Positions 4,702 through 14,751 are shown, numbered from the stretch's first letter. The stretch is 35,877 nt of DNA from a bacterium GBS-1 (GCA_001443005.1 LEKQ01000011.1:1-35877), one strand, 5' to 3'. Notes: generated by a model not told the origin, from the letters alone. Program-made: numbers and translations.

Positions 4702-4729
4702 AACTATATGCTTACTTTCGCCCTTGGAG

Positions 4730-4769
4730 TTGTCACCCATCTCCTCTAGAGATGGGTGACAATTTTTTT
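4730..4769 (+). terminator. Rho-independent terminator after aor
   Basis: A perfect stem pairs TTGTCACCCATCT (4730-4742) with AGATGGGTGACAA (4750-4762), extendable by one pair, followed at once by seven T residues (4763-4769). It separates the aor operon from the envelope gene block. Confidence 0.93.
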
Positions 4770-4784
4770 CCTTTCTGTTAGAAT
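4756..4784 (+). promoter_or_regulatory. Candidate promoter of the sigma/bamA/lpx block
   Basis: GTGACA (4756-4761) and TAGAAT (4779-4784) are 17 bases apart. The -35 lies inside the right arm of the upstream terminator and the spacer contains its T-run. Transcription would start near 4791, about 30 bases before the sigma-factor ATG. Confidence 0.6.
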
Positions 4785-4820
4785 TTCCTTGAAGGGGTTG
4801 AAAGGGAGTGATGCCTTGAT

Positions 4821-5372
4821 ATGGAGGAATACCTTAAGGCTTTAAGCAAGGTTAAGCTTCTTGAGCCTGCCGAAGAGGAGGAGCTGTGGAGGAGGTTTAA
4901 GCAAGAGGGTGATGAGGAAAGCAGGTTAAAGATAATAGAGTCCTATCAGCCTTTGGTCTTTAAGGTCCTTTCCAAGATAGGTCATCCCTCAGATCTAACC
5001 TTAGATCTACTTCAGGAGGGGATGGTTGGGCTTATAGAAGCGGTGGACAGGTTTGAGCCCGAAAGGGGATGGAAGTTTTACACCTTCGCTTACTATAGAA
5101 TAAAGGGGTGCATCCTTAACGCTTTGACCAGAAAGATGCCATCTTGGGAGCTAGTTGAGGATGTGGAGTTGGGTAAGGACATTGAGCCAGATTATGGTTT
5201 GCTATCTATGGAGATCGGGGTTTTATCCGAGGATGATAGGAGAGTAATAGAGGGGATATATTACGAGGGTAAGGGGCTTAAGGAGATGGCGAAGGAGCTA
5301 GGGCTTTCCCTAAGCAAGATCCAGAGGATTCATAAGAGGGCTCTGAAAAAGCTTAAGGAGGTTTTGGGATAA
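4821..5372 (+). CDS. Small sigma-70 family RNA polymerase sigma factor
   Basis: A 183-residue sigma factor. Residues 1-30 resemble region 1.2, residues about 36-106 are region 2 (core binding in DLLQEGMVGLIEAVDRFEP, -10 melting and recognition in WKFYTFAYYRIKG), and residues 133-182 are region 4 with the helix-turn-helix GLKEMAKELGLSLSKIQRIH. Region 3 is essentially absent, as only about 25 residues link regions 2 and 4. It is too short for a housekeeping sigma and carries a region 1.2-like start that ECF sigmas lack. ATG 4821 follows GGGAG at 4804-4808; the closer ATG 4811 reads to a stop after two codons. As the first gene of the envelope block it may autoregulate and control outer-membrane genes (inference). 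Confidence 0.88.
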   Translation: MEEYLKALSKVKLLEPAEEEELWRRFKQEGDEESRLKIIESYQPLVFKVLSKIGHPSDLTLDLLQEGMVGLIEAVDRFEPERGWKFYTFAYYRIKGCILNALTRKMPSWELVEDVELGKDIEPDYGLLSMEIGVLSEDDRRVIEGIYYEGKGLKEMAKELGLSLSKIQRIHKRALKKLKEVLG

Positions 5373-5383
5373 TAATAGATGCT

Positions 5384-5971
5384 ATGGGAGACAAGAAAGT
5401 AGTTAAAAAGATTAAGTTTGCTAAGAGGTGGCTTGAGAAGGCTGAGGAGGCCTACCTTCAGGGTAGAAGCGAGGAAGGCTTCTTAAGCTTATCCTTAGCC
5501 GAAGCGGAGATAAGGACGCTTCAGAAGGGGGAATGGTCTAGCCTGTTAAAAGGTAGAAGGTCGTTCTCGATGAGAGTTATGGAGGTCTTCCTTCTGGTAT
5601 TCTTAATCCTTATTTTGTTTGTCTCCTATACATCTATTGAAAGGGTTCCGCTTCTTAACCCTAAGGGGTATACCTCCTTTGCTTCTTTAGAGGAGGGAAT
5701 CTTTAAGCCAGGCAGAGGTGAAACTTTCTCCTTTTCTGTTCAACTTCCTAACCTTAGGTTTAGCGTTCACGGTAAGATGGAGGGAAGCCTTAGCATTACC
5801 AAGGCGTTAGACGCTCACGTTTTATACGTGGTTCAGAGGGAGAAGGTTAAAAGCAGGGAGGAGCTTAAGGTTAAGGGCTCGCAAGAACTCACCCTTTCAG
5901 CGGACGAGTTAGTCCGTTTGATAGAGCTTGGCAAGAAGGAGTTGAAGGTTTATCTTACAGGAGGGAGGTAA
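5384..5971 (+). CDS. Single-pass membrane protein of unknown function, anti-sigma-like topology
   Basis: A 195-residue protein with no recognised family. Residues 1-62 are basic and predicted helical (a helix-turn-helix pair like one TPR unit: AKRWLEKAEEAYLQGRSEEG), residues about 65-83 form one transmembrane helix (MEVFLLVFLILILFVSY), and residues 84-195 form a mainly beta-rich domain that would be extracytoplasmic by the positive-inside rule. The gene lies 11 bases after the sigma factor and 5 before bamA. ATG 5384 has no well-placed ribosome-binding site (AAGGAGG is about 20 bases upstream), suggesting coupling to sigma-factor translation. The layout resembles sigma/anti-sigma pairs that sense envelope state, but I see no known anti-sigma motif, so this role is a hypothesis. 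Confidence 0.75.
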   Translation: MGDKKVVKKIKFAKRWLEKAEEAYLQGRSEEGFLSLSLAEAEIRTLQKGEWSSLLKGRRSFSMRVMEVFLLVFLILILFVSYTSIERVPLLNPKGYTSFASLEEGIFKPGRGETFSFSVQLPNLRFSVHGKMEGSLSITKALDAHVLYVVQREKVKSREELKVKGSQELTLSADELVRLIELGKKELKVYLTGGR

Positions 5972-5976
5972 GACCC

Positions 5977-7689
5977 GTGAGGAAGGTCTTTGCTATGATT
6001 TTTTTCCTCTTTCTGTTTTCGGGTATCTGTTTAGCAGCTCCTGTGATAAAGGCTATAGATGTGGAAGGAAACGTCACTGTAGTTAAAGAGCGTATTCTCA
6101 GTGTCGTTCAGAGCAAGGTTGGTGATCCTCTTGACGAGGATAAGATAAAGGAAGATTTAAAGAGGATCTATGATCTCGGCTTCTTTAAGGGAGTCTCCGT
6201 TAGAGGCGAGCCCTATGAGGATGGTGTGAAGGTGATATTTGTGGTTGAGGAATTCGAGCAGATAAAGGATGTAGTTATTGAGGGGAACACGGTCGTTCCT
6301 ACGAGGAAGATAAGGGAAGTTATGTTTTTAACTGAAGGGATGCGCTTTAACGCTAACTTCTTTAAGCGCGACATAGATAGGATAGTGGACCTCTATAGGA
6401 GAGAGGGGTATGGATTTATAAGGATAATGGATGCGGGCTTCAGCAGGGGCGTCTTATTCATAAAGATCCTTGAGCCCAAGGTGAGGGAGATAATAGTTCA
6501 AGGTAATAAGAAGACTAAAGATTATGTTATAAAAAGGTACATATACGTTAAGCCGGGAGAGGTGCTTAACACTAAGAAACTTAGGCTTTCGCTCTCAAGA
6601 CTAGAGGCTACCGAGTTCTTTGAAAAGGTAGAAGCCTATCCTGAGCCGACGGAAGATGTGGCTTGGATAAACTTGGTCTTCAACGTTCAGGAAAAGAGCG
6701 CTACTCGGCTTATGTTGGGCGTAGGTTATGGTAGCGTCACCGGTTGGGAGGGAGAGGCAGCCTTTGAGGACCTTAATTTCTTAGGTAGGGGCATTCGCTT
6801 TAGCGTAGGGTTAGGTTTAGGAGAACAGGAGAGGCAATGGATATCTTGGGAAGACCCTTGGATGGATGAGAAGCACTTCGCCTATAAGGTCGGTTTCTTC
6901 AGGAGGGATTATAACGATGTTAACTGGTATGATCGGGAGACGGGCGAGGTGAAGGGGACTTACGATGAGAGTGCAGAGGGTTTTTACATTGGTTTTGGTA
7001 GAAAGCTAAACGATAAGTTGTCCTTTTATCTTACCCTTACTCATGAGAACGTTAATGTAACTCCAACTTCCGGTGAACCTCCGGATAAGGAGAACGTCCT
7101 TCAAGGAGAGGTTAGATATTTAACCTTAACCCTCTCCAGGGACAATAGGGATCCTTATCTTCCTTATTCCATTGGGGATGTGGAGAGCTTGACCGTTGAG
7201 CAAGCGGGTCTGTTTGGTGGAGATTATGACTATACGAAGTATTGGGGTGAAGTTAGGTTCTACATCCCCTTCGAACTTAATAAGTGGCTTGGTATAGAGC
7301 TTGCTTCCGGAGAGGAGGATAGGCCTTGGACCCTCGCTGGCAGGGTGAGGTATGGGGATTCTAGTGGCACCTTACCCTACTTTGAGAAGTATTCCATCGG
7401 TGGGGCGACCACCTTGCGTGGCTACTCGAGGGGTTACTTCGTTGGTGAGAAGATGTTTTTGGCAAATCTTGAGTTAAGGGTGCCCATTGAGAAGGGGCTT
7501 GAGATAGTCGTCTTCAATGATTGGGGGTATGCTTGGAGGAGGGATGAGAGCCTTTCCTTCTCAGATGTTAGGCGTAGCGTTGGCTTCGGTTTAAGGATAA
7601 GGACGCCCTTCGGCATGATAAGGTTTGATGTGGCTGAGAATGAGGAGGGGGAGAGCCAATCTTACATAGGCTTCGGTCATATATTCTAA
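5977..7689 (+). CDS. bamA: Outer-membrane protein assembly factor BamA (three POTRA domains)
   Basis: A 570-residue Omp85-family protein that inserts beta-barrel proteins into the outer membrane. Residues 1-20 are a signal peptide (FAMIFFLFLFSGICLA). Three POTRA repeats follow at about 22-93, 94-168 and 169-241, each with the IxGN-type start (DVEGNVTV, VIEGNTVV, IVQGNKKT), then a 16-strand-type barrel from about 245. The essential loop-6 Arg-Gly-Tyr is at 481-483 in TTLRGYSRGY. The C-terminus ends in a beta-signal with terminal phenylalanine (YIGFGHIF). E. coli BamA has five POTRA domains and about 810 residues, so this is a short form. The start is GTG 5977, after GAGGGAGG. Confidence 0.95.
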   Translation: MRKVFAMIFFLFLFSGICLAAPVIKAIDVEGNVTVVKERILSVVQSKVGDPLDEDKIKEDLKRIYDLGFFKGVSVRGEPYEDGVKVIFVVEEFEQIKDVVIEGNTVVPTRKIREVMFLTEGMRFNANFFKRDIDRIVDLYRREGYGFIRIMDAGFSRGVLFIKILEPKVREIIVQGNKKTKDYVIKRYIYVKPGEVLNTKKLRLSLSRLEATEFFEKVEAYPEPTEDVAWINLVFNVQEKSATRLMLGVGYGSVTGWEGEAAFEDLNFLGRGIRFSVGLGLGEQERQWISWEDPWMDEKHFAYKVGFFRRDYNDVNWYDRETGEVKGTYDESAEGFYIGFGRKLNDKLSFYLTLTHENVNVTPTSGEPPDKENVLQGEVRYLTLTLSRDNRDPYLPYSIGDVESLTVEQAGLFGGDYDYTKYWGEVRFYIPFELNKWLGIELASGEEDRPWTLAGRVRYGDSSGTLPYFEKYSIGGATTLRGYSRGYFVGEKMFLANLELRVPIEKGLEIVVFNDWGYAWRRDESLSFSDVRRSVGFGLRIRTPFGMIRFDVAENEEGESQSYIGFGHIF

Positions 7690-7700
7690 TAGCCTTTTCT

Positions 7701-8864
7701 TTGACTCTTTTTTTCTCCTCTCCAACTCATGCTATTGTTAAGGTTTCCCTGGAAGGGATGCCTGCCTTTTTGCAAGATGCGGTAGCTGCGGTCTTAAGAA
7801 GGATCGCGGAGGAGATCAAGGATAATCCTGCAAGGGAGCCTATAGTAAAGAGCGTTTCTTCTAAGCTTTTCCCCGGTTATGGGGTTAAGGAAGTATCCTT
7901 TAGGGATGAGCTTAAGGTTGTTTTTTTTCCAATTTACCCCTTGGTTGATCGCGTTTCCGTTAGCTTTTCTCCTGAAAGGTTCCCAGAGGAGCTTGAGCCC
8001 CTCTTTAAGGTTAGTCTTGACAGGATATCTGGTAAAGTCTCCTCCCTGTTTAAAGGGCTTCCCGTTGATTCCCTCGACTGGGTTCAGGAGGTTGTTGCTT
8101 TAAAGGTAAGGGAGATCGTTTCGGAGGAGCTTCCAGGTTTTGGTTCATCCATTTCACTATACTTTTTTCACGAAACTTTGATGGTAAAGGTTTCCTTGAG
8201 AGGGGAGGATCCATTGATTTTGACGGTTGATCTCACCTTGAGGTCTGGAACGGTGCCTAATATCGTCCTCCGTGGCTTAAGAAATGAGTTCTTGCCGAGC
8301 GTTAAGCTGATGGAGGGGCTCCCCGTAGCCTTCGTTAAGCGTCATGAGAGATTCTTCAAGGATATGGTTGTGAAGAGAGCCTCTATGTCAAAGGCGCTTT
8401 CCTTCTACAGGGTTGATCTTTTGCCTGAGCTTAATCTTGGAAGGATATCGAGCATGATATTATCCCTTGAGTCTAGAGTTTGGTCTATAAGCGCTGAGGG
8501 GAAGGTCCCTGTAGGACTTAAGGGGGCTGAGCCGGAGGGGACCCTTCACTTCGGTAAGGTTTTCAAGGAAGGGGAAATATTTTTCGAGCTTAGGGCCATG
8601 CTCGAGAGTGTAGACTTTGAAAACTTTTTAGGGATTCAGCTTAAGGTTGGACCTAAGCTTTGGATAGGTTACAAAAGAGAGCTTTCTGAGGGTGATAATG
8701 TGTTCTTCCTGAGATACTCTAATCTTCAGATTAGCTATTGGGATGAAGATGGAGGGGTTGAGCTCTCCTACTCTTACTGGTTTGGTTCTTGGGTTAGGGT
8801 TGAGTTCACTTACTCTACTCATGAGGATAGGCTTTTCTTCCTCAGGGTAGTGGGTAGACTATAA
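7701..8864 (+). CDS. Exported protein of unknown function downstream of bamA; start probably upstream of first canonical codon
   Basis: From the first canonical codon, TTG 7701, the protein has 387 residues and no recognised family. Its C-terminal part has alternating aromatic and polar residues (FFLRYSNLQISYW, ELSYSYWFGSW) suggestive of beta strands, so an outer-membrane or periplasmic location is possible. Oddity: the same frame stays open upstream to 7644, and codons 7662-7733 read as a good signal peptide (LHRLRS, then YILIAFSLTLFF, then SSPTHA). No ATG, GTG or TTG exists upstream. ATC 7659 lies just after the purine tract GAGGAGGGGGAG (7642-7653), so a non-AUG start overlapping the bamA end is plausible. 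It sits between bamA and skp, implying an envelope role. Confidence 0.75.
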   Translation: MTLFFSSPTHAIVKVSLEGMPAFLQDAVAAVLRRIAEEIKDNPAREPIVKSVSSKLFPGYGVKEVSFRDELKVVFFPIYPLVDRVSVSFSPERFPEELEPLFKVSLDRISGKVSSLFKGLPVDSLDWVQEVVALKVREIVSEELPGFGSSISLYFFHETLMVKVSLRGEDPLILTVDLTLRSGTVPNIVLRGLRNEFLPSVKLMEGLPVAFVKRHERFFKDMVVKRASMSKALSFYRVDLLPELNLGRISSMILSLESRVWSISAEGKVPVGLKGAEPEGTLHFGKVFKEGEIFFELRAMLESVDFENFLGIQLKVGPKLWIGYKRELSEGDNVFFLRYSNLQISYWDEDGGVELSYSYWFGSWVRVEFTYSTHEDRLFFLRVVGRL

Positions 8865-8889: not shown

Positions 8890-9363
8890 ATGAAAGGTTT
8901 GAAGCTCATCTTATGCATGCTGTCTCTTGTGGTGCTTAGTCTATCATTAGTCCAGGGAACCTGGGCTCAGAGCGCCATAAAGATCGGGGTGGTTGATGTG
9001 GATTATCTCTTGAACAATCACCCCAAAGCTGAGGAGGTAAGAGCGCAGATCAGAAGCTTTATACAGAAACAGGAACAGGAGGTGAAAAGCCAGGTAGAGA
9101 ACGCTCGCAAGACCATCAAGGATGAGAATCAGCTCAAGCAGAAGGAAGCTGAGATCTTTAGGAGCGCTCAGGCTCAGTTTGATAAGTATAAGAAAGATCT
9201 CCTGGATCCCCTTATGAAGGATGTGGATCTGGCCATAAGAGAGGCGGCTAAGAAGCAGGGGATCGAGATCGTCTTTCTTAAGGGCGCCGTTTTCTTTGGT
9301 GGGATCGATATAACGCAGGATGCTTTAAACATCCTGAAGAGCAAGTATGGCAAGACTAAATAA
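8890..9363 (+). CDS. skp: OmpH/Skp-family periplasmic chaperone
   Basis: A 157-residue protein with a signal peptide ending near residue 26 ([13 protein letters not shown]). Then comes the Skp start strand ([12 protein letters not shown]), a long charged coiled coil at about 45-125 rich in Gln, Lys and Glu, and the closing strand with [18 protein letters not shown]. Skp forms a trimer that holds unfolded outer-membrane proteins for BamA, which fits its place after bamA and before lpxD, the same order as in E. coli. ATG 8890 follows AAAGGAGGGG. Its last 17 bases overlap lpxD. Confidence 0.9.
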
Positions 9364-12909: not shown

Positions 12910-13981
12910 ATATATATTAAAGCTTCTTTTACCCCCTTTTCTGTTTGGCATAGGCATTTTCACAGTTCTCCTCGTTGCGGGAGATGTCTTGTTCTATCTT
13001 GCCAATCTCGTGGTTAACCAAGGCTTAAGCCTTTGGGTAGCCATAAAGATATTCCTCTATAAACTTCCTGAGGTTGTCATTATGACATTCCCCATGGCTG
13101 TTCTTTTAGCTACCATCCTCGCTTTCGGCAAGATGTCATCTCACGGGGAGATAATTGCCTTAAGAAGCGTGGGGGTTAGCTTTCGGAGGAGCTTGGTACC
13201 CGTTATCATTATGGCTGTTGGTGTTGCCGTTTTCTCCTTCATCTTTAATGAGAGCGTGGTTCCGATCACGAGGAGGGCGGTTTCCAACGTTCTTGAAGCG
13301 GAGATTGGAAAGAAGAAAGCCGTTTTATTAAAGGAGGATGTTTTCTTGAGGGAGATGGAGGGAGAGGAGCTTAGGAGGGTTCTTTATATAGCTCAGATGA
13401 ACCCGAGGTCCGGCTACTTCAGAAGAGTTATAATTCAGGAGTTTGAGAAAAACAGGCTTTCCAGGATTATAACTGCGGAAGATGGTTTCATTGAGGGGGA
13501 CTCTTGGGTCCTGAATGACGGTAAGATCTATAACATAGATAAGGATGGTAGCGTGAGCTCAGTCGCTAAGTTCAAGAAGCAGATAATGACCTTTTCTTTT
13601 TCGCCTCAGAAAGCCGTCTCTATGGCTAAGGAGCCCCAGGAGATGACGTTGGTTGAGCTCAAGGAGCACATAAGCATGCTTAAAGCCCAGGGGGCTTCCT
13701 CGAAGAGACTCGAGGTTAGATATCATCAGAGGTTGGCGATACCTTGGGCGGGTGTTGTTTTCGTGTTGATTGGTGCACCTTTGGCTATAGTTCCTCATAG
13801 GGGTTCTTCATCTATGGGGGTTGGCTTGAGCGTTTTGATAATTTTCATTTATTATGTTTTACTTTCCTTTGGGCAAGCTCTGGGCGATGCGGGGGAGATA
13901 CCTCCCCTTTTAGCCGCCTGGCTTCCCAATATGGTTTTGGGAGGGGTGGGAACGATACTATGTTTGAGGGCACCAACTTAG
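12878..13981 (+). CDS. LptF/LptG-family lipopolysaccharide export permease
   Basis: An inner-membrane permease of about 367 residues. Hydrophobic helices near the N-terminus (after LLDRYILKLLLPPFLFG) and at the C-terminus (AIPWAGVVFVLIGAPLAIV onwards, six helices in total) flank a periplasmic beta-jellyroll of about 130 residues. LptF and LptG normally form a heterodimer driven by LptB to extract LPS, but only one copy is present here; its partner and LptA/B/C/D must be elsewhere. The start is uncertain: TTG 12878 has AAAGGAG 12 bases upstream, TTG 12893 would give the typical short N-terminus, and the frame is open to TTG 12848. It overlaps kdsC and, by 22 bases, lpxI. Confidence 0.93.
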   Translation: MLISFLHLLDRYILKLLLPPFLFGIGIFTVLLVAGDVLFYLANLVVNQGLSLWVAIKIFLYKLPEVVIMTFPMAVLLATILAFGKMSSHGEIIALRSVGVSFRRSLVPVIIMAVGVAVFSFIFNESVVPITRRAVSNVLEAEIGKKKAVLLKEDVFLREMEGEELRRVLYIAQMNPRSGYFRRVIIQEFEKNRLSRIITAEDGFIEGDSWVLNDGKIYNIDKDGSVSSVAKFKKQIMTFSFSPQKAVSMAKEPQEMTLVELKEHISMLKAQGASSKRLEVRYHQRLAIPWAGVVFVLIGAPLAIVPHRGSSSMGVGLSVLIIFIYYVLLSFGQALGDAGEIPPLLAAWLPNMVLGGVGTILCLRAPT

Positions 13982-14751
13982 GTTTGGTAGCGGGAGAGGG
14001 AAGGCTTCCCTTAGCGATTTACGATAGGCTTTATCCCAAGCCCTTGGTCGTCGGCTTGGGAGAGGTGCAGGAGGGGTTAAAGGTAGACCTTAAGCTCTAT
14101 AGCGCGGACATAGAGAGGGTCATATCCTTCTTTAAGGAGAATGGGGTCAAGGGTATTTTTTTGGCTGGAAGGGTTCCTAAGACTTGGATATTTGATCCCT
14201 CTAAGCTGACCTCGAAGAGCTTGGCTTTCTTAAGCTCCCTCAAGGATAAGAGCGACCATGAAATACTTGGGAGACTGGTTGAGCTCTTTGAGATGGAGGG
14301 GTTTAAAGTTGTGGAGTATAGGCACGTCATAAGGGATATGCTTGCTCCTCGAGGCTCCTTCGGTTCGAGGGAGCCGACGCCGGAGGAGTGGCGGGATATA
14401 TCTTACGGCTTTAACATAGCTAAGAGGATGGCTGCCATGAGCTTTGGGCAGACGGTTGTAGTCAAGAGGGGAGCGGTTTTAGCGGTTGAGGCTATCGAGG
14501 GTACTGATGAGGCTATAAGGAGAGGAGCAAGGTACGGTGGGGAGGGAGTGGTTGTAGTTAAGGTTATAAAGGATGATCAGGATCCGAGGTATGATCTTCC
14601 CACCATAGGAGCTGATACCCTCAGGTTGCTTAAGGAGGTTAAGGCTTCCTGTCTTGCGGTTGAGGCAGATATGACCGTTTTGCTTGATAGGGATGAGATT
14701 TTGAAGATAGCCTCGGAAAGCGGAATAGCTCTGGTGGGGGTTTCCGGTTGA
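13960..14751 (+). CDS. lpxI: UDP-2,3-diacylglucosamine pyrophosphatase LpxI
   Basis: A 263-residue DUF1009 protein that hydrolyses UDP-2,3-diacylglucosamine to lipid X. It is the alternative to LpxH used in many non-gammaproteobacterial diderms. The N-terminal domain begins LGLVAGEGRLPLAIY. The C-terminal catalytic domain has AVEAIEGTDEAIRRGARY and VIKDDQDPRYDLPTIGADT, the latter containing the acidic residues expected at the active site. ATG 13960 lies inside the end of the lptF/G-type gene, and the stop overlaps the TTG of lpxB. Confidence 0.95.
   Translation: MFEGTNLGLVAGEGRLPLAIYDRLYPKPLVVGLGEVQEGLKVDLKLYSADIERVISFFKENGVKGIFLAGRVPKTWIFDPSKLTSKSLAFLSSLKDKSDHEILGRLVELFEMEGFKVVEYRHVIRDMLAPRGSFGSREPTPEEWRDISYGFNIAKRMAAMSFGQTVVVKRGAVLAVEAIEGTDEAIRRGARYGGEGVVVVKVIKDDQDPRYDLPTIGADTLRLLKEVKASCLAVEADMTVLLDRDEILKIASESGIALVGVSG

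Follow-up and report, generated by a model that had tools for sequence, protein, structure and literature searches.

A sigma factor, an inner-membrane protein and a secreted protein linked to bamA: a candidate trans-envelope signalling module of diderms outside Proteobacteria

How might diderm bacteria that lie outside the Proteobacteria let the state of the outer membrane reach the transcription machinery? The question is raised by a locus in bacterium GBS-1, a member of the phylum Synergistota, in a 35,877 nt stretch of DNA (GenBank accession number LEKQ01000011.1, bases 1–35877, assembly GCA_001443005.1) that was analysed as a whole and is referred to here as the window. In it, the gene for a small sigma factor is followed by the gene for a single-pass membrane protein and then by bamA. 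A preliminary description had suggested that the first two form an envelope-sensing pair, with the membrane protein as an anti-sigma factor. We examined the conservation, order and loss of these genes and the predicted properties of their products. A third gene, encoding a secreted protein, was found to travel with the pair, and the three genes probably constitute a conserved trans-envelope signalling module of diderms outside Proteobacteria, in which the membrane protein would be the anti-sigma factor and the sigma factor would be released on an outer-membrane signal.

When the membrane protein of the window was used alone as the query, matches were found in 44 of the 188 genomes of phylum Synergistota, and nearly all of the loci retrieved carried the sigma factor, membrane protein and bamA genes in that order, at 20–30 % identity. 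A profile of the N-terminal domain and transmembrane helix of the membrane protein (profile A1), which is the basis of the homologue counts, matched 157/188 Synergistota genomes, 98/120 genomes of the class Negativicutes and 5/7 genomes of the phylum UBP15, as well as 20 of 249 genomes sampled evenly across Bacillota, a phylum that also includes many monoderm groups. Searching species genomes for the sigma factor retrieved metagenome-assembled genomes (MAGs) from Selenomonadaceae (class Negativicutes) and Bacillota, one of each, together with four UBP15-type MAGs, and the order of the pair was unchanged in all of them. The membrane protein gene was almost always present in a single copy, directly downstream of a sigma gene of the same family. 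Two genomes (G126 and G179) had two A1 matches each, which may be duplicated modules or assembly duplicates.

The sigma and membrane protein genes were on one strand in 225 loci, and in 206 loci the sigma, membrane protein and bamA genes followed one another directly. The exceptions were contig ends, over-long open reading frame (ORF) starts, one HD-GYP insertion, the UBP15 loci and four loci lacking a membrane protein match. In UBP15, tamB and the pair are kept together with bamA not adjoining, and in Bacillota tamB is often found directly before the sigma gene. The only separated pair (L091:9178-13788, genome G342) retains both genes in one orientation, flanked by tamB and bamA and approximately 3 kb apart, and the insert consists of a small ORF and a gene whose product has HD-GYP-like domains. 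Homologues lying consistently away from any sigma gene, which the preliminary description had named as the finding that would tell against a pair, were not seen. The order of the three genes is not due to chance, because it recurs at 20–50 % identity across phyla, and the search proposed in that description, for the same pair upstream of bamA in other diderms, located it in both Synergistota and diderm Bacillota. Two weak matches (L061 and L062, E ~0.004) were set aside, as no sigma gene was found with either.

The 40 genomes with no match to the membrane protein were then searched for the sigma family. RpoD and other sigma types were recovered, and one fragment at a contig end could not be assigned to the family or excluded from it. 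An intact sigma factor of this family was found in only one of the 40 (G476), where a divergent partner gene (159 aa) adjoins it, and, that contig-end fragment apart, none of the 40 had the sigma gene and clearly lacked the partner. The bamA gene was kept in all 11 pair-less genomes that were checked. In three Negativicutes-class loci (L266–L268), which are probably of Veillonella type, the pair is missing and tamB runs directly into bamA. Loss is selective, removing the genes for the sigma factor, the membrane protein and the secreted protein and leaving tamB, bamA, lpxD and often skp in place. Adjacency and joint loss strongly support the sigma factor and membrane protein as one functional unit, as had been supposed.

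The gene after bamA, whose family we designate A5, is unannotated and was missed in the preliminary description. It was present in 127 of the 128 pair-bearing loci in which the sequence extended far enough past bamA. In 28 of the 127 the adjacency test failed, yet a strong A5 match lay within the locus, probably because the predicted starts overlap bamA. In one genome (G190), the A5 gene and the pair are on different contigs. A5 was not found in any of 30 pair-less Synergistota and Negativicutes genomes, nine of which were checked and keep bamA. The losses are spread across three Synergistota families (f7, f8 and f10) and the class Negativicutes, and so are not one event. Members of the family have a signal peptide and, in the C-terminal half, an alternating beta-strand pattern, and the terminal residue is Leu in 112/129 and Phe in 11/129. 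There was no Pfam match at E<=1, no PDB match and no match to TonB-dependent receptors. By these sequence features the protein looks like a small outer-membrane beta-barrel. Since A5 tracks the pair, the unit appears to have three parts, namely a sigma factor, an inner-membrane protein and an outer-membrane-like protein. In the window, the signal peptide (ILHRLRSYILIAFSLTLFFSSPTHA, bases 7659–7703) overlaps the end of bamA and is not preceded by ATG, GTG or TTG, and the start codon may be ATC, ATT or ATA.

The sigma factor of the window matched Pfam Sigma70_r2 (1.7e-16) and Sigma70_r4 (3.5e-12) and, weakly, Sigma70_r1_2 (0.013), with no region 3, in agreement with the original account of a 183-aa protein with regions 2 and 4 and a region 1.2-like segment. 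Region 2 was detected in all 92 relatives and region 4 in 78 of them; 18 had region 1.2, and no relative had region 3. Extracytoplasmic function (ECF, group 4) sigma factors have regions 2 and 4 and neither region 3 nor region 1.2; region 3 is absent here too, but 18 of the 92 members of this family have region 1.2. Of the NCBIfam matches listed, the broad model TIGR02937 was the only one over its cut-off, and the others, under cut-off, were full-length models of the group 3 and primary types. In the PDB, the best sequence match was WhiG of 6pfv, and the closest match outside the genome itself was on a contig (L031) from a Synergistetes bacterium. In a tree of the family, labels grouped by phylum; branching between phyla was not resolved and the RpoD outgroup was on a long branch, and the tree was used solely for this clustering. 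Small sigma ORFs in two genomes (G001 and G490) were rejected as family members, as they lie in other neighbourhoods and have no partner gene.

The membrane protein had no match above chance in Pfam or NCBIfam, in keeping with the earlier statement that it belongs to no known family, and its profile retrieved no relative from the PDB. The anatomy originally proposed, a basic helical N-terminus, one membrane helix and an outer domain of about 110 residues, was borne out, with ~113 residues past the transmembrane helix in the window. In the homologue set, the cytoplasmic part from domain start to transmembrane helix has a median length of ~56 residues and ~119 residues follow the helix. A single transmembrane helix was predicted in 204/219 homologues. 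Lys and Arg residues average 3.8 in the 15 residues before this helix versus 1.3 after it, and the topology is therefore N-in. The cytoplasmic hairpin is the most conserved part of the protein: position 15 in the domain alignment is Trp in all 216 proteins, and Ala is conserved at two positions to 86 % and 97 %. The periplasmic stalk is variable, frequently with a high content of Pro, Ala and Glu, and the amphipathic helix at its end is the only other conserved motif. The HxxxCxxC motif of zinc anti-sigma (ZAS) factors was not found in any of 220 homologues.

Binding of the hairpin to the sigma factor was explored using a model in which the two proteins of locus L193 were fused in one frame, with stops read as Gly and a linker of ~50 residues, and an alignment made up of 48 other natural read-through rows plus 43 that covered the sigma factor only. 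AlphaFold2 (AF2) gave a predicted local distance difference test score (pLDDT) of 84 and a predicted template modelling score (pTM) of 0.63 for the fusion, in which the hairpin forms two long helices (residues 250–283 and 287–317, pLDDT 94–98 over most of their length). The gain over the sigma factor alone with the same rows (pTM 0.58) is modest. From the pTM formula, we estimate a value of ~0.45 with the hairpin undocked and ~0.7 with all three domains fixed, so the observed value suggests, indirectly, that the hairpin docks on the sigma factor. In direct coupling analysis (DCA) with within-cluster shuffles, the top sigma–hairpin coupling was 5.9 standard deviations versus a null maximum of 4.0. 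Foldseek superposed single sigma domains alone, with TM-scores of ~0.3 for the fused model and 0.4–0.5 for the sigma factor alone, and these comparisons do not inform on the interface.

In the window, the upstream gene ends in a terminator whose 3' arm carries the -35 hexamer of the promoter that heads the operon (Table 1), and a similar overlap was seen in a close relative (L002). In Synergistota, where bamA shares an operon with the pair, an extended -10 element (TGNTANAA[TAG]) was found at most 130 nt upstream of the sigma gene in 66 of 129 loci, against an expectation of 4.4 from shuffled sequence, whereas the membrane protein gene was preceded by one in 5 of 130. When the comparison was confined to genes preceded by a gap of 60 nt or more, 18/24 sigma genes had the element versus 31/404 others. 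Elements of the form TGGTAnAAT are unusually frequent before the sigma gene in this phylum (e.g. L130, L138, L142 and L149), and some extended -10 elements are accompanied by a TTAGACA-like -35. In one genus, part of the signal is the TGG TAA end (stop codon) of the upstream gene. There was no enrichment upstream of the sigma gene in Bacillota (4/84), as expected where the sigma gene directly follows tamB. Because the promoters at the head of the operon look vegetative, there is no sign of autoregulation, and the picture fits a constitutive sigma factor under post-translational control.

The rest of the region agrees in part with the preliminary description, which had placed bamA, skp and the lpx genes directly after the pair. 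bamA does follow directly, but skp is separated from it by the A5 gene. The skp gene is followed by lpxD, lpxC, fabZ and lpxA, all on the + strand, and throughout the run, from the sigma gene on, neighbours either overlap or are separated by a few to ~30 bases. The product of bases 13960–14751 resembles LpxI and would be the UDP-diacylglucosamine hydrolase type used by the local lipid A pathway. In four Synergistota loci lacking the module (L272, L273, L274 and L276), bamA runs directly into lpxD and skp is gone from that position; in L276, skp stands before bamA.

Table 1. Features of the bamA region, with positions counted from the first base of the window
Feature	Position	Strand	Remarks
Intrinsic terminator of upstream gene	4726..4766	+	18-pair stem, T tail; from promoter/terminator scan
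Vegetative-type promoter	4756..4784	+	GTGACA-17-TAGAAT with TG extension (extended -10); heads the sigma–membrane protein–bamA operon
Sigma factor gene	4821..5372	+	183 aa; Pfam regions 2 and 4, weak region 1.2, without region 3
Single-pass membrane protein gene	5384..5971	+	195 aa; proposed anti-sigma factor
N-terminal cytoplasmic helical hairpin	5393..5539	+	Residues ~4–52; invariant Trp, conserved Ala pair
Transmembrane helix	5570..5629	+	Residues ~63–82; N-in by the positive-inside rule
C-terminal periplasmic helix (SADELVRLIELGKKELK)	5897..5947	+	Residues 172–188, conserved; possible site of contact with a periplasmic or outer-membrane partner
bamA	5977..7689	+	POTRA domains and Omp85 barrel (Pfam, NCBIfam)
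Unannotated secreted protein gene (A5)	7701..8864	+	387 aa counted from the first ATG/GTG/TTG; beta-strand-rich C-terminal half
skp (OmpH family) chaperone gene	8890..9363	+	Pfam

The gene order, conservation, joint loss, topology and domain limits of the module are established, and a mechanism can be proposed around them. The N-terminal hairpin would hold the region 3-less sigma factor at the inner membrane, and the single helix would connect the hairpin to the variable stalk and its conserved terminal helix. This short helix may read the assembly state of the outer membrane through BamA, TamB and/or the secreted protein; the signal would most naturally come from the secreted protein and from BamA or TamB. 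On failure of assembly, the sigma factor would be freed and would drive a set of envelope genes. The pair may tune outer-membrane assembly and lipid A synthesis, as first suggested; in Synergistota it shares an operon with bamA, but the promoters heading that operon look vegetative. We infer that the C-terminal helix and the secreted protein have sensing roles. The anti-sigma function suggested at the outset is plausible in that the protein is an N-in single-pass protein, its hairpin is confidently predicted and the fusion scores above the undocked estimate, but the coupling analysis did not separate the sigma factor from a BamA control. That control gave a BamA–hairpin coupling of 5.5 against a null of 5.1, and the sigma–hairpin signal is no clearer. 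Other observations also weigh against the proposal. The docking argument uses our own estimate from the pTM formula and is drawn from a global pTM. The secreted protein is missing from one genome that has the pair (G049), and it is present in two UBP15 relatives (G552 and G554) where no membrane protein was detected. When a sigma-specific promoter was sought upstream of the sigma gene, just the vegetative-looking extended -10 elements were found.

BamA–hairpin couplings about as strong as those with the sigma factor would also be expected if the membrane protein were an outer-membrane assembly factor, for example an inner-membrane link to BamA/TamB via its C-terminal helix, with the sigma factor just transcribing the operon and the pairing reflecting operon membership. 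The membrane protein also adjoins bamA in nearly all loci, and the conserved motif at its periplasmic end would suit such a role. However, the UBP15 pair stays together where bamA does not adjoin, the sigma factor and membrane protein are lost jointly where bamA and tamB stay, and the most conserved part of the protein is a cytoplasmic hairpin that is unable to touch BamA, and we regard this explanation as unlikely. Adjacency and loss fit equally well with a tether or activator that recruits the sigma factor (and RNA polymerase) instead of inhibiting it, since binding alone cannot tell inhibition from activation, and FecR-type proteins can act as both inhibitor and activator. Most known membrane partners of sigma factors encoded by an adjacent gene are inhibitors, however, and recruitment in place of inhibition seems quite improbable here. 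Least probable of all, with only a slim chance of being correct, is that the three genes have unrelated roles and were simply inherited vertically in an ancestral outer-membrane cluster, joint loss then reflecting rearrangement of the whole cluster. An ancestral cluster of this kind is known in diderm Firmicutes (PMC5007114) and the sigma trees do separate by phylum, but in several Synergistota families and in the class Negativicutes the three genes have been lost selectively, with tamB, bamA, lpxD and often skp staying.

The signalling module preferred here can be compared with known systems. None of its three proteins matches a known anti-sigma or outer-membrane family in Pfam or, where searched, in NCBIfam and the PDB. 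It shares with sigma-E (RpoE)/RseA of Escherichia coli a sigma gene followed by the gene for a single-pass, N-in membrane protein, and a connection with outer-membrane assembly. Sigma-E monitors unfolded outer-membrane proteins, and the BAM and Skp genes are under its control (PMC13067283). RpoE, a typical ECF sigma factor, matches the module sigma factor in region 2 alone (28 % over 87 aa), whereas some members of the latter have a region 1.2-like N-terminus. RseA and the module membrane protein show no similarity (hhalign probability 0.05 %, one column aligned; no Pfam RseA match), and the module pair is not followed by rseB and rseC and is encoded beside bamA itself. The layout of a sigma factor, a single-pass regulator and a linked outer-membrane protein is shared with FecI-FecR-FecA. 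The three genes of the module are likewise inherited together, the outer-membrane location of the third protein being suggested by its sequence pattern, and the conserved C-terminal periplasmic element of the regulator could receive a signal as in Fec. The membrane protein has no FecR domain, however, and in Pfam the secreted protein did not match a TonB-dependent receptor. RsiG is a soluble inhibitor of the helical hairpin type that uses c-di-GMP, and its partner WhiG has region 3. The predicted N-terminal hairpin of the membrane protein recalls RsiG in WhiG/RsiG (PDB 6pfv, 7lq4), but it belongs to a membrane-bound protein whose profile did not match RsiG in the PDB search, and the module sigma factor lacks region 3.

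The setting of the module is the outer-membrane cluster of diderm Firmicutes, with tamB, bamA, skp and lpx genes, described by Antunes et al. 2016 (PMC5007114) and also treated by Poppleton et al. 2017 (PMC5491611). The texts of these papers do not name a sigma factor in the cluster, although the gene may be listed elsewhere without comment. Genomes that are probably of Veillonella type, the usual model for this cluster, lack the module, and this may be why it has gone unnoticed. According to a 2026 review of BAM, the BamA of Terrabacteria works without lipoprotein subunits, possibly with unknown factors (PMC13067283). A full-text literature search linking sigma factors and the outer membrane with the envelope stress response in Terrabacteria, which did not reach subscription papers and preprints, returned no paper. 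Sensing of outer-membrane damage by diderms outside Proteobacteria and Bacteroidota appears to be unreported so far.

The module, undescribed in the literature found, is a concrete and testable candidate for such a role, common to at least three phyla (Synergistota, diderm Bacillota and UBP15). It provides proposed functions for three proteins, two of which belong to no known family, and the secreted protein is new as a third member that travels with the pair. More tentatively, and with the balance slightly against it, the module may be an ancient, three-part system for outer-membrane surveillance in diderm Terrabacteria, in which an outer-membrane protein would report BamA/TamB-dependent assembly to a hairpin anti-sigma factor of a new family and so free the sigma factor; lineages without sigma-E/RseA would then have its functional equivalent in this module. 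The module is also relevant to the monoderm/diderm question: provided that its tree is vertical, the common ancestor would be expected to have carried a dedicated outer-membrane regulator in the core of the cluster.

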